Shown piece by piece: positions 23,120-29,895 of a stretch of DNA of 32,352 bases (positions within the stretch are counted from its first letter, which is position 1; the number at the start of each line of letters is the position of its first letter). The stretch is taken from NCBI GenBank assembly GCA_003215355.1, contig QCKL01000010.1, positions 1 through 32,352 of the forward strand, read 5' to 3'. Made by a program: the position numbers and the translations under genes. Source of the DNA: Prochlorococcus sp. AG-409-O23 (GTDB taxonomy: Bacteria; Cyanobacteriota; Cyanobacteriia; PCC-6307; Cyanobiaceae). The notes beneath the pieces were generated by a model. It ran no database searches. It had not been told where the DNA came from and saw only the letters and a program-made list of their open reading frames with translations.

Positions 23120-24319
23120 GTGAGTTGGGAAGAAGGCTTTAAAAATGCTGTAAGACAGGGGAGAAGAGGATGGAATGTCGCGAATAACAATGGACGCATG
23201 CAGCTCAAGCTAAGAGGCAAGTTTCTTCCTCTTGCGCCACAAACAGCGAATCTTCCCTTTCCTTGGCATCCCAATAAACAGGCAGATGCTCTGTTGTTAA
23301 TCAATAGGGTCTATGGGCCTGTTATGGATCGGAAGCAGTCTCTTAAACAAGCAATTATTGATGTATTGGGGCAAAGCGATCAAAAAGCTCATTTGGTTCT
23401 GAAGGGATGGCCACAAATCGCTGAAAGTCTCAGGGTGCTTCGAATGGAAGGTGTGAATCAGATACTGCCAACTACTTGGCGTGACAACTGGGAGCCTTAT
23501 ATCAATCACGCTTTAGAAGTTCTCGCAACTAGAAATCAGCCTTCAGATGGGCATGAGTTGCTTCAAAAGTGCTTGATGAACTGGCAAGGAAGACCCTCAA
23601 GTCGAGCTGCTTGTTGTCTGGCGCTTAAGAATTTCACCGAGCATGCGGTTGTGCGGCACAACATGCCCAGTAGTTGGCTTATTACTCAGACCAGCATCAA
23701 GGAATTAAGAGGACGGAAACCTGAGAAGCGTATTAAGGCAACTCTTACTGACTCTGAGTGCTTGGCTCTAATTGAAGGAATCAATAATCGCAATCCAGCT
23801 TGGGCAAATGTTTTGCGTTTAATGGTTCAATTTGGTTTAAGGCCTATTGAGTTGCAGTATTTGACTCTGAGAGAAGACCACAATGGTGAGTCGCGTTTGT
23901 GGTGCTCATACAGGAAAGTTTCTGGTCCTAACAAGTGTGAGCCTCGGTTTTTGATGAGTTCTCCATTGTTGGATTCACAAGGAGTGAAGGTTGAGTGGAA
24001 CTTGATCTCCTCCTACCCATTGCTCGAATTACCTCTAGGAAAAGATGGAAATCGGAGAAAATTAAATGGTCACTACGTTGAGGTCTTTCTGAAAACACAG
24101 CCTGAGTGGATCAAGCTCAAAAAAGAGTATGAGCAGCGGGGTGAGTGGTTGAGGCCTTATACCTTCAGGGATACATACAGCGTGCGTTGTCATCGGCTCC
24201 GATTTGAAACTGCTCAAATTTGCCGAGCGATGGGTCATGGTTTAGCAGCGCATAGCAGGGCTTATCGATCAGCAACTGATCAGACCATGTTCGAAGCATT
24301 CGATCAGCTTTCTGCCTGA
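23120..24319 (+). CDS. Tyrosine recombinase/phage-type integrase
   Basis: The 399-residue protein has a C-terminal tyrosine-recombinase domain. Box I arginine is in FGLRPIELQYL (Arg241), a candidate lysine is in SYRKVSG (Lys266), box II is RPYTFRD (Arg350, with Tyr347 where the usual histidine of HxxR stands), and MGHGLAAHSRAYRS supplies His373 and the nucleophile Tyr382. The first 200 residues would contain the core-binding domain. It starts at GTG 23120. Such enzymes move integrative elements. No tRNA target or cargo genes such as excisionase or capsid are seen beside it, so it may be a resident recombinase or the remainder of an element. It marks the right edge of the AT-rich segment. Confidence 0.85.
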   Translation: MSWEEGFKNAVRQGRRGWNVANNNGRMQLKLRGKFLPLAPQTANLPFPWHPNKQADALLLINRVYGPVMDRKQSLKQAIIDVLGQSDQKAHLVLKGWPQIAESLRVLRMEGVNQILPTTWRDNWEPYINHALEVLATRNQPSDGHELLQKCLMNWQGRPSSRAACCLALKNFTEHAVVRHNMPSSWLITQTSIKELRGRKPEKRIKATLTDSECLALIEGINNRNPAWANVLRLMVQFGLRPIELQYLTLREDHNGESRLWCSYRKVSGPNKCEPRFLMSSPLLDSQGVKVEWNLISSYPLLELPLGKDGNRRKLNGHYVEVFLKTQPEWIKLKKEYEQRGEWLRPYTFRDTYSVRCHRLRFETAQICRAMGHGLAAHSRAYRSATDQTMFEAFDQLSA

Positions 24320-24724: not shown

Positions 24725-25018
24725 TTAAGTCTTAACAGCGCACTTTTCAGTCTCTTCAGTAGCGAGCGCAGCTTTTTTTTCTGCTGGGGCTAACGATTTG
24801 AGTTCTTCTTGAAGCTCATGCTCTCGCTCATCGATGATTTTGATACGAGACTGATAGTTCTCTTCCAGCATCTTGCGAGAAGCTTCAAGATTGTCGAGTT
24901 CCTCCTGCCGTTGCTTAAGTTTGATCTCCTCTAGTTGGCTATCAGAGACCACATAAACAGTCCTCATTGGAGAAAAGAATGAGTCAGCAAAAACTGCGTC
25001 GAATAAGGATGTGTACAT
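24725..25018 (-). CDS. Hypothetical coiled-coil protein
   Basis: From the ATG at 25018 (MYTSLFDAVFADSFFSPMRT) the protein has 97 residues. A TTG at 25054 would add 12. The N-terminal aromatic segment leads to VYVVSDSQLEE and then a long helix rich in Glu, Lys, Gln and Leu with coiled-coil character (residues 25-80). The end is Ala/Glu-rich and contains one cysteine. No family is identified. It is transcribed alone towards a strong terminator and is divergent from the 54-aa gene. Confidence 0.65.
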   Translation of the reverse strand: MYTSLFDAVFADSFFSPMRTVYVVSDSQLEEIKLKQRQEELDNLEASRKMLEENYQSRIKIIDEREHELQEELKSLAPAEKKAALATEETEKCAVKT

Positions 25019-25078
25019 GATGTTCTGTGCGGGAACACCATTATTTTGCCCCAAGTTTGAGCAAGAACTAATGATGTA

Positions 25079-25119
25079 AACCGAAAAAATCTATACGGTA
25101 AATATCACCTGATTCGGTT
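25079..25119. promoter_or_regulatory. Inverted repeat in divergent promoter region
   Basis: AACCGAA (25079-25085) and TTCGGTT (25113-25119) are perfect complements 27 bp apart, with two more CGGTAA/ACCGTAA-like words nearby (around 25096 and 25141). They lie between the coiled-coil gene and the CP12-like peptide gene and could bind a regulator. No regulator is assigned. Confidence 0.3.
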
Positions 25120-25226
25120 AATAACACTATAGATAGTAAGAACCGTAAAGCCTAAATGCTTGGGTAAAAACCCTATATACAATTTATACAAATATGTTAG
25201 AAATGAATTAGCCCAACAGGAGAATT

Positions 25227-25391
25227 ATGAAACTAAGAACTCCTTTCACTTTAATTACCAATCCACTGAGAGACATCGATCATATCCACGATTTTAATTA
25301 CAAGTTGTCCAATGAAGAGCAAGGTGACTTTTGGGAAGAGAAATGCAAACTTCATCCCACAAAATCCTCTTGTAAGCTCTACGAAGTGTAG
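25227..25391 (+). CDS. 54-aa protein with CP12-like C-terminal motif
   Basis: A good ribosome site (AGGAGA at 25218-25223) precedes the ATG at 25227. The protein starts MKLRTPFTLITNP and ends with EEKCKLHPTKSSCKLYEV. The last 15 residues follow CxxxPxxxxCxxYE, the paired-cysteine pattern of the C-terminal, GAPDH-binding end of the Calvin-cycle regulator CP12. The N-terminal CP12 cysteine pair and the AWD_VEEL core are absent, so this is at most a CP12-tail-like peptide. It ends 30 bp before the first canonical start of the OsmC-cupin gene and may be co-transcribed. The function is inferred only. The gene itself looks real. Confidence 0.75.
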   Translation: MKLRTPFTLITNPLRDIDHIHDFNYKLSNEEQGDFWEEKCKLHPTKSSCKLYEV

Positions 25392-25420
25392 ACAGGATTC
25401 TTTGCCGTTATTTAGGAGAT

Positions 25421-26323
25421 TTGCATACAGAAGCTAAGCATGTGAAGTCTGGAGAAACTCTTAGGACCGATGCACCTATTGACCATGCAGGCAAAGGAGA
25501 GAATTTTGCTCCTACTGATTTATTGGCTACAGCTGTAGGGACTTGTTTCCTTACAGTGATGGGAATCACTGCCAAAGAAAAAGGGTGGAAATTAGATGAA
25601 ATAACAGTTGCAATTGATAAGAAGATGACAACTCAGGGTCCTCGCAAGATTAGATCTTTATTACTTCAAATTGATATGCCAACTAATTTAGGAGCTGATC
25701 AATTAAAGGTCCTTCAAAAGGTAACGAAAGACTGTCCTGTTTTGAGAAACTTAAATGACTCAATAAAAATAAAAGTCAAGTGGAATCAATTAAAACAGAA
25801 AAAAAAGACTTCTCTGAATTTTGTCGCTACTAATGTCTTTCGTGAAACTCCTGATGTCACGTTCTTTGATGCAGTAGTCAACGGCTCTAATGGATCTGAT
25901 GTGGTGATTCATCACGGAGCTGCAATTTCTCCTCCTAACGACAAAGAATTTGAGCAGTATTACGTTCATCACCATCAGATTGATCACAACTTAGTTGTAG
26001 AAGGAAGCCGCACTTTTACTCTCCTCAACCCTGCATGGGATGAGCCTCATCACGTGATTTACCTCAATCCAAAAATGGGTGCTCTTCAAATACCTATTGG
26101 GACTTATCACCAATCTGTTTCAGGGACAGAGGGCAGCATCGTATTGAATCAAGCAGTACGAGATAAGTGTTTTGATTCAAAGAGGGAATTTATTCCTGTC
26201 AGTTTGCGAGATAGGGCTGATTTGCGTAATGCAAAAGCAGCTGAGCCTGTTTATTGGATTTGGGATGATGGAAGAATCAGAAGATTGAAAGTACGTCGTG
26301 CTAGCAAAGCTAATATTTTTTGA
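25421..26323 (+). CDS. OsmC-like/cupin fusion protein
   Basis: Residues 1-125 match OsmC/Ohr-type peroxide or sulfur-handling proteins: GETLRTDAPIDHAGKGENFAPTDLLATAVGTCFLTVMGI with the first reactive cysteine (Cys42), then TQGPRKIRSLLLQIDMP, and DCPVLRNL with the second (Cys105). After a lysine-rich linker (about 123-131), residues 135-285 look like a cupin: VHHHQIDHNLVVEGSRTFTL, then GALQIPIGTYHQSVSG and GSIVLNQAVRD. The first usable start is TTG 25421, but the frame upstream (from about 25397) reads ILCRYLGDL, and YLGDL belongs to the conserved OsmC N terminus. The true start is therefore unclear: ATT at 25397 or a lost ATG. A redox role is likely but not proven. Confidence 0.8.
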   Translation: MHTEAKHVKSGETLRTDAPIDHAGKGENFAPTDLLATAVGTCFLTVMGITAKEKGWKLDEITVAIDKKMTTQGPRKIRSLLLQIDMPTNLGADQLKVLQKVTKDCPVLRNLNDSIKIKVKWNQLKQKKKTSLNFVATNVFRETPDVTFFDAVVNGSNGSDVVIHHGAAISPPNDKEFEQYYVHHHQIDHNLVVEGSRTFTLLNPAWDEPHHVIYLNPKMGALQIPIGTYHQSVSGTEGSIVLNQAVRDKCFDSKREFIPVSLRDRADLRNAKAAEPVYWIWDDGRIRRLKVRRASKANIF

Positions 26324-28866: not shown

Positions 28867-29895
28867 ATGCGCATTGGTATTAATGGTTTTGGTCGGATTG
28901 GCCGCTTAGTTTTTCGTGCCTTATGGGGTCGTTCCAATATTGAACTAGTTCATATCAATGACCCAGCAGGAGATGCTCCAACAGCAGCTCATCTACTGGA
29001 ATTTGACTCCGTTCATGGTCGTTGGGACCAGCACATTGATTCCGACTTAAAAGGGATCAAGATTGATGGTCAATTTCTTAGCTACTCGCAAGAGAGTGCT
29101 CCCACTAATGTTCCATGGGAGCAAGCGGGTGTTGACTTTGTTCTGGAATGCAGTGGAAAGATAAAAACACCAGAACTATTAAACCCTTACTTTGATCAGT
29201 GTGGCATTAAAAGAGTTGTTGTTGCTTGTCCCGTGACAGGTGAAGTGGCAGGGACAGAAGCTCTAAATATCGTCTATGGAATCAACCATAATCTTTACGA
29301 CCCTAAGATTCATCGACTAGTCACAGCTGCATCGTGTACAACCAATTGCTTGGCACCAGTTGTCAAAGTTGTCAATGAAAACTTTGGAATCATGCATGGA
29401 GCCATTACCACTCTTCATGACATCACCAATACACAGGTTCCAATTGACTCTTTTAAAAGCGACTTAAGGCGAGCACGCAGCAGTATTCAAAGCCTCATCC
29501 CCACTACAACTGGTTCGGCTAAAGCTATAGGAATGATTTTCCCCGAGCTTCAAGGCAAATTAAACGGACATGCTGTACGTGTTCCACTGTTGAATGCATC
29601 CCTGACTGATGCCGTTTTCGAACTTGAGAGAAAGGTCTCAGTTCAAGATGTTAATGACGCTTTTCAACGTGCAGCGGAAGGAGACTTAAAAGGAATTCTT
29701 GGCTATGAAGAAAGGCCCTTAGTCTCCATTGACTACGTCAATGATTCACGCAGTTCAATTATTGATGCTTTGTCCACAATGGTTATAGATGGGAATCAAT
29801 TAAAAGTTTTTGCCTGGTATGACAATGAATGGGGTTACAGCTGTCGTATGGCAGACCTAACTTCTTATGTCGTGAATCTAGATAGCAAAGGTTAA
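28867..29895 (+). CDS. gap: Glyceraldehyde-3-phosphate dehydrogenase, ArsJ-associated
   Basis: The 342-residue protein has the NAD-binding start [19 protein letters not shown] and the catalytic [10 protein letters not shown] (Cys157), with His184 in [10 protein letters not shown] and the C-terminal [19 protein letters not shown] replaces the usual HSYTGDQ of housekeeping enzymes, marking this as the dedicated arsenic-linked form. With arsenate in place of phosphate it makes unstable 1-arseno-3-phosphoglycerate, which ArsJ exports, giving net arsenate removal. It is 11 bp upstream of arsJ and clearly in the same operon, under the paired ArsR operators. A Calvin-cycle or glycolytic role is less likely because of the neighbours. 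Confidence 0.93.

Follow-up and report, generated by a model that had tools for sequence, protein, structure and literature searches.

The window, by which we mean the whole stretch of 32,352 nucleotides that was analysed, belongs to a picocyanobacterium, Prochlorococcus sp. AG-409-O23, whose genome sequence (1.38 Mb, 69% complete) contains a separate CP12 elsewhere. CP12 is the protein that switches off GAPDH, an enzyme of carbon fixation, by means of a redox-sensitive C-terminal tail. The gene considered here encodes a peptide of 54 amino acids and is present in a second copy in the same genome. The features at and around it are as follows.

24725–25054, minus strand: divergent small coiled-coil-like gene, a neighbour of the peptide gene in most loci of the lineage
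25066–25226, plus strand: conserved upstream region of the peptide gene, from a by-eye alignment of 160-nt regions of ~35 homologues
25218–25222, plus strand: AGGAG, the Shine-Dalgarno sequence for the peptide, located five bases ahead of its ATG
25227–25391, plus strand: gene for the 54-aa microprotein with a CP12-like tail
25329–25388, plus strand: CP12-like tail, FWEEKCKLHPTKSSCKLYEV (C40, P44, C49, Y52, E53), from PDB profile searches and Foldseek
25386–25390, plus strand: GTGTA, candidate recoding site, comprising the last sense codon GTG and the TA of the stop
25388–26323, plus strand: OsmC-cupin frame (ORF open from 25376 to 26323), −1 relative to the peptide frame and overlapping its end
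28867–29895: ArsJ-type GAPDH gene (NCBIfam: ArsJ-associated GAPDH), beside ArsJ

The open reading frame at 25227–25391 (plus strand) translates as MKLRTPFTLITNPLRDIDHIHDFNYKLSNEEQGDFWEEKCKLHPTKSSCKLYEV. Its C-terminal 15 residues, CKLHPTKSSCKLYEV, are an exact match to CxxxPxxxxCxxYE, as the first-pass annotation had read them, and its calling as a real gene is borne out by the AGGAG site, by homologues, by a dN/dS of ~0.22, and by a terminal motif that stands far above its reversed control. AGGAG or a near variant is kept 5′ of the homologues in the upstream alignment. The region 25066–25226 contains repeated AACCGWA/TWCGGT half-sites, a CTTNNGTAAAA element, and a −10-like TATAT; with its half-sites and CTTNNGTAAAA it is retained even in distant homologues, and it is possibly an operator for a regulator.

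Homologues, whose identity to the window peptide reaches down to ~40%, occur in 38 genomes of the 99 relatives searched, with up to six per genome and nearly all in the same taxonomic family. A scan of GTDB contigs found 171 encoding stretches, and the 80 that were kept are all labelled Prochlorococcus or uncultured Synechococcaceae. Residues M1, D16, C40, P44, T45, S47, C49, and Y52 are invariant among 52 homologues, so both cysteines are unchanged in the family, as the earlier reading of the tail as a disulfide loop required. The penultimate glutamate of the CP12 tail is present in the window peptide as E53; an acidic residue (D/E) follows the tyrosine in 78 of 103 distinct family-A peptides, and 21 of the 103 stop at the tyrosine, lacking the two residues after it. 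The 54-aa type also conserves an N-terminal module, MKLxTPFxxIxNxLxD.

Pfam gave zero matches to the peptide even at E ≤ 1, in agreement with the earlier statement that the CP12 core is missing, and searches of PHROGs and NCBIfam returned no convincing family. Neither the AWD_VEEL core nor PF02672 was detected in the peptide, and a PF02672 search of the genome found the separate CP12 only (C2:105248-105451). Membership of PF02672 was rejected on these grounds, no profile match and a missing core, and the peptide is therefore not a CP12. It shares with CP12 the CxxxPxxxxC loop, the aromatic and acidic residues past the second cysteine, and the extreme C-terminal position, whereas the core, the N-terminal half, and the Pfam match of CP12 are lacking. 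The N-terminal cysteine pair of CP12 is absent as well, the peptide having two cysteines in all; the picocyanobacterial CP12s examined likewise lack this pair. The microprotein tail further departs from that of CP12 in having a tryptophan at −4, a threonine after the proline, and a basic instead of an acidic loop, and, unlike CP12, the tail microproteins occur as several paralogues per genome.

The resemblance to CP12 in the tail alone, as first proposed, was found by several routes. Against 177,635 PDB sequences, a profile of 13 whole peptides gave three matches at E ≤ 10, all of them CP12 and the best being 3b1j (E = 0.025), and a profile built on 20 tails drawn from several families gave seven matches at the same threshold, again all CP12, with a best E-value of 2.5e-4. 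A PDB search with a single peptide sequence did not find CP12 and returned chance matches only. With hhalign, the 20 tails align to picocyanobacterial CP12 at a probability of 92% (E = 5e-7), and the alignment of whole peptides to CP12 is weak (probability 26%). As a control, 18,928 random tails with the same C/P/C/Y skeleton were scored and compared with four real CP12 tails; the score of the real tails was reached by 0–19 of the 18,928, depending on the tail, and the likeness therefore exceeds the bare skeleton.

An AlphaFold model of the peptide is of low confidence (pLDDT 61), with a helix at residues 32–42. When this low-confidence model was compared by Foldseek with 350,542 PDB chains at E ≤ 10, only 7q54_C, a chain of photosynthetic A4B4-GAPDH, and 3qv1_H and 3b1j_C, which are CP12 bound to GAPDH, were returned. 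The E-values of 5–9 are weak taken alone, and because Foldseek scores sequence as well as shape, this support is not independent. Judged from sequence, the peptide carries a CP12-type, putatively GAPDH-binding tail without the CP12 core.

The tail might instead bind a partner other than GAPDH, such as thioredoxin or another redox protein, its likeness to CP12 being convergence on a short disulfide hairpin. The shared stretch of only ~20 residues, the charge pattern unlike that of CP12, and the weak whole-peptide hhalign result speak for this reading. We nevertheless regard it as improbable, as the PDB profiles and Foldseek retrieve CP12-type chains only, the similarity goes beyond the C/P/C/Y skeleton, and the match lies at the extreme C-terminus as in CP12.

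The same tail, [FY]W[ED]xECxxHPTxxxCxxY[ED]x, is found by inspection of the matches at the C-terminus of at least five small proteins that are otherwise unrelated in their N-terminal parts: the 54-aa type, a ~70-aa type, a ~60-aa type beginning MLKALFxGMLEVSSAYYGDSIGLAPI..., and two Synechococcus-like types. The ~70-aa family (L034:1275 on the minus strand, L048, L050, and others) carries an extra CX11C pair in addition to the tail and so has four cysteines, as canonical CP12 does, with the CP12 core missing. Searching with a DNA pattern of the terminal motif returned ~136 matches in 60 of the 61 genomes of the family, and three matches with the reversed pattern; of the ~136, ~66 are true CP12 and about half are therefore something else. 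With a stricter, tryptophan-containing pattern, 54 genomes of other cyanobacterial families yielded one match, which has a single mismatch.

The transfer of a CP12-type tail to a different protein, where it serves as a redox module that binds GAPDH, has precedent in the C-terminal extension of GapB and in ADK3, whose CP12-like tails interact with GAPDH (PMC9406205). GapB and ADK3 are large plant and algal enzymes, whereas the carriers described here are picocyanobacterial and phage proteins of ~45–80 residues. An extra Cp12-like protein is also found in Synechococcus elongatus, where Synpcc7942_0252, comparable through its description as a Cp12-like domain protein, is of low abundance, interacts with Gap2 and Prk, and rises in the dark (CyanoTag, PMC11804935).

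Tail microproteins are also encoded by viruses. IMG/VR contains 34 viral contigs with such a gene, an Hsp20 gene lies directly 5′ of it in 28 of 31 viral loci, and a DNA polymerase gene usually lies 3′. The phage isolate P-TIM68 encodes a 51-aa member and, as a separate gene, a normal CP12; the microprotein is thus an addition, not a replacement. Cyanophage CP12 is likewise phage-encoded and aimed at the Calvin cycle of the host, but it matches the full-length protein, unlike the tail microprotein. In P-SSM2, an unannotated ORF between hsp20 and purM (L270:630-728), ending in MKLTSPFSIIKNAISDLKRVPKEKKQKEKSVV, consists of the N-terminal module and has no CP12-like tail.

These distributions bear on a second alternative, in which the tail is an address that attaches to GAPDH, or else to assemblies of GAPDH, CP12, and PRK, and the work is done by the N-terminal module or the joined OsmC, by tethering or by competing with CP12 and not by inhibition. 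The recurrence of the tail on different N-termini, the conserved N-module, its occurrence alone in the P-SSM2 ORF, and the family-A peptides that keep the loop without the two residues after the tyrosine would all be expected of an address. The N-module, however, has no known partner, and most members retain the acidic residue after the tyrosine as in CP12; we consider a mere address unlikely.

Two gene products near the peptide had been highlighted at the outset, an arsenic-type GAPDH and, as the next gene, an OsmC protein, and both are where they were placed (28867–29895 and 25.4–26.3 kb). The suggestion that this GAPDH is the target did not hold. The tails of CP12 and GapB act on photosynthetic GAPDH via Arg77 and the S-loop (PMC3728087, PMC4436894); the penultimate glutamate of algal CP12 meets GAPDH Arg82, the equivalent of Arg77 (PMC4436894), and roles in CP12 binding are described for Arg77, R183, S188, and R191 (PMC3728087). 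Chromosomal Gap2 has the sequence SDRNP with Arg77 and retains R183, S188, and R191, whereas the arsenic GAPDH of the window reads SQESAP and lacks Arg77, Arg183, Ser188, and Arg191. Only three sampled loci (the window and two others) have an arsenic GAPDH within ~4 kb of a copy of the peptide, and ArsR, arsenic GAPDH, or ArsJ is close to the peptide in only a few. With the contact residues missing and the proximity not conserved, the arsenic GAPDH was rejected as the target, and chromosomal Gap2 becomes the natural and likely candidate. Binding of the peptide to Gap2 is, on balance, probable, and the Lys, His, and Thr that stand in place of CP12 acidic residues could make it weaker at the Arg-rich S-loop.

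The link to a redox gene, first suggested by adjacency, proved stronger than anticipated. In nearly every locus of the lineage an OsmC domain follows the peptide in a constant frame, −1 with respect to that of the peptide; in 41 distinct loci this overlap is fixed and the OsmC frame has no canonical start codon. In OsmC genes without an upstream peptide (L254-L265) the first codon is ATG, in one case TTG, and the protein begins M-T-x-[IV]-x-C-x-Y. Where the peptide precedes OsmC, this start codon is replaced by GTA, the frame reading V-D-[KR]-I-x-C-R-Y-L-G-D-L, and most peptide-OsmC loci have no in-frame ATG, GTG, or TTG before that point; in four loci there are none in the first 60 nt of the OsmC frame. 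The first in-frame canonical start in the window, TTG 25421 (+194), is not conserved in relatives, being CTG or TTA in 7 of 38 loci, and the 30 nt before it have a dN/dS of 0.11. Variation there is mostly synonymous, so those codons are translated. A start at TTG 25421 was accordingly rejected as a general solution.

The peptide ends in GTG-TAG/TAA in all 41 loci with the OsmC overlap, versus 2 of 115 without OsmC. Among the four-fold-degenerate residues of the peptide, only the terminal valine is invariant in both amino acid and codon, and GTG accounts for only 29 of 129 valine codons across six sampled genes of the window. At loci with a decayed OsmC, TTG has replaced GTG in two (L009, L077), and GTG is kept in one (L010). 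Two OsmC copies have neither a peptide nor a start codon (L252, L253) and are read as pseudogenes because an internal stop was flagged by the search for each of the two genomes.

Within GTGTA, GTG in the peptide frame and GTA in the OsmC frame are overlapping valine codons two bases apart, and a tRNA-Val in the P site that slipped by +2 at the stop would therefore enter the OsmC frame. A −1 slip was rejected, since GTG cannot re-pair with AGT, which leaves +2 (GTG to GTA) as the only tandem match. Of the hallmarks of programmed recoding, a fixed frame and spacing, a downstream ORF with no start of its own, and purifying selection before any start are found here. Stop-hopping between matched codons has been reported in synthetic constructs (PMC5009743), and phr4/phr5 of marine Synechococcus have been the subject of a comparable argument from fixed spacing (PMC9426592). 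Folding of one sequence, without shuffles, revealed no conspicuous stem-loop 3′ of the peptide stop. An alternative route to OsmC is coupled initiation at a candidate AUU/AUC start, which is ATT in 36 and ATC in 2 of 38 loci; this route would, alone, leave the invariant GTG unexplained.

From the junction we infer that OsmC is expressed through recoding or an AUU start and that the peptide gene is probably read into the OsmC-type gene in this lineage, which would tie a redox tail to a peroxidase. More tentatively, and with odds that we place against it, a ribosome stalled at the stop may slip by +2 from GUG to GUA and yield both the free microprotein and a CP12-tail-OsmC-cupin fusion, whose redox-controlled tail would deliver the peroxidase to the Calvin cycle.

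The same fixed spacing, together with an OsmC that has no canonical start, is what would be seen if the peptide were mainly a leader ORF controlling translation of OsmC and its product were incidental. This we judge very improbable: OsmC is absent from 115 of the 156 distinct peptide loci, phages carry it in other contexts, the protein is under purifying selection, and copies outlast the decay of OsmC.

The best explanation of the locus, held with moderate confidence, is that of a core-less CP12-tail microprotein acting as a redox-switched Gap2 ligand coupled to OsmC. Under oxidising conditions, C40 and C49 would form a disulfide, and the resulting hairpin would put Y52-E53 into the coenzyme cleft of Gap2, the Calvin-cycle GAPDH, with E53 against Arg77. 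The bound peptide would lower NADPH-dependent GAPDH activity, and thioredoxin would reverse this. As the PRK-binding part of CP12 is missing, the peptide would act on GAPDH alone, or a second partner would be brought by the N-terminal module. Coupling to an OsmC-type peroxidase would most simply make the system part of an oxidative-stress response, in which carbon fixation is slowed and NADPH saved during peroxide removal. Knocking out CP12 causes sensitivity to paraquat and high light (PMC8309167), in keeping with an OsmC partner.

A literature search confined to open papers found no description of these peptides, and within that scope the core-less CP12-tail peptides of ocean picocyanobacteria and their viruses are a previously undescribed set. 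New here are the CP12-type tail on core-less microproteins and the fixed, startless OsmC overlap. Few photosynthetic organisms are as abundant as Prochlorococcus. If the proposal is right, its carbon fixation would be under several redox-sensitive GAPDH ligands, multi-copy and shared with phages, and not under one CP12; the CP12 tail would be a freely transplantable module in bacteria; and the junction would offer a natural example of stop-codon recoding, with the start codon lost from an antioxidant gene.

The C-terminal half of the OsmC protein (25796–26323, plus strand) matches the phage family phrog_9052, labelled hemagglutinin, with E = 1e-54, and in another locus (L044) this half forms a separate gene that has an ATG of its own. 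A diverged tyrosine recombinase, with weak matches to phrog_1 and XerA, lies 0.9 kb upstream of the peptide gene (23120–24319, plus strand). Integrase-like matches are found near two more peptide loci (L094, L099), and together these matches suggest a mobile island.
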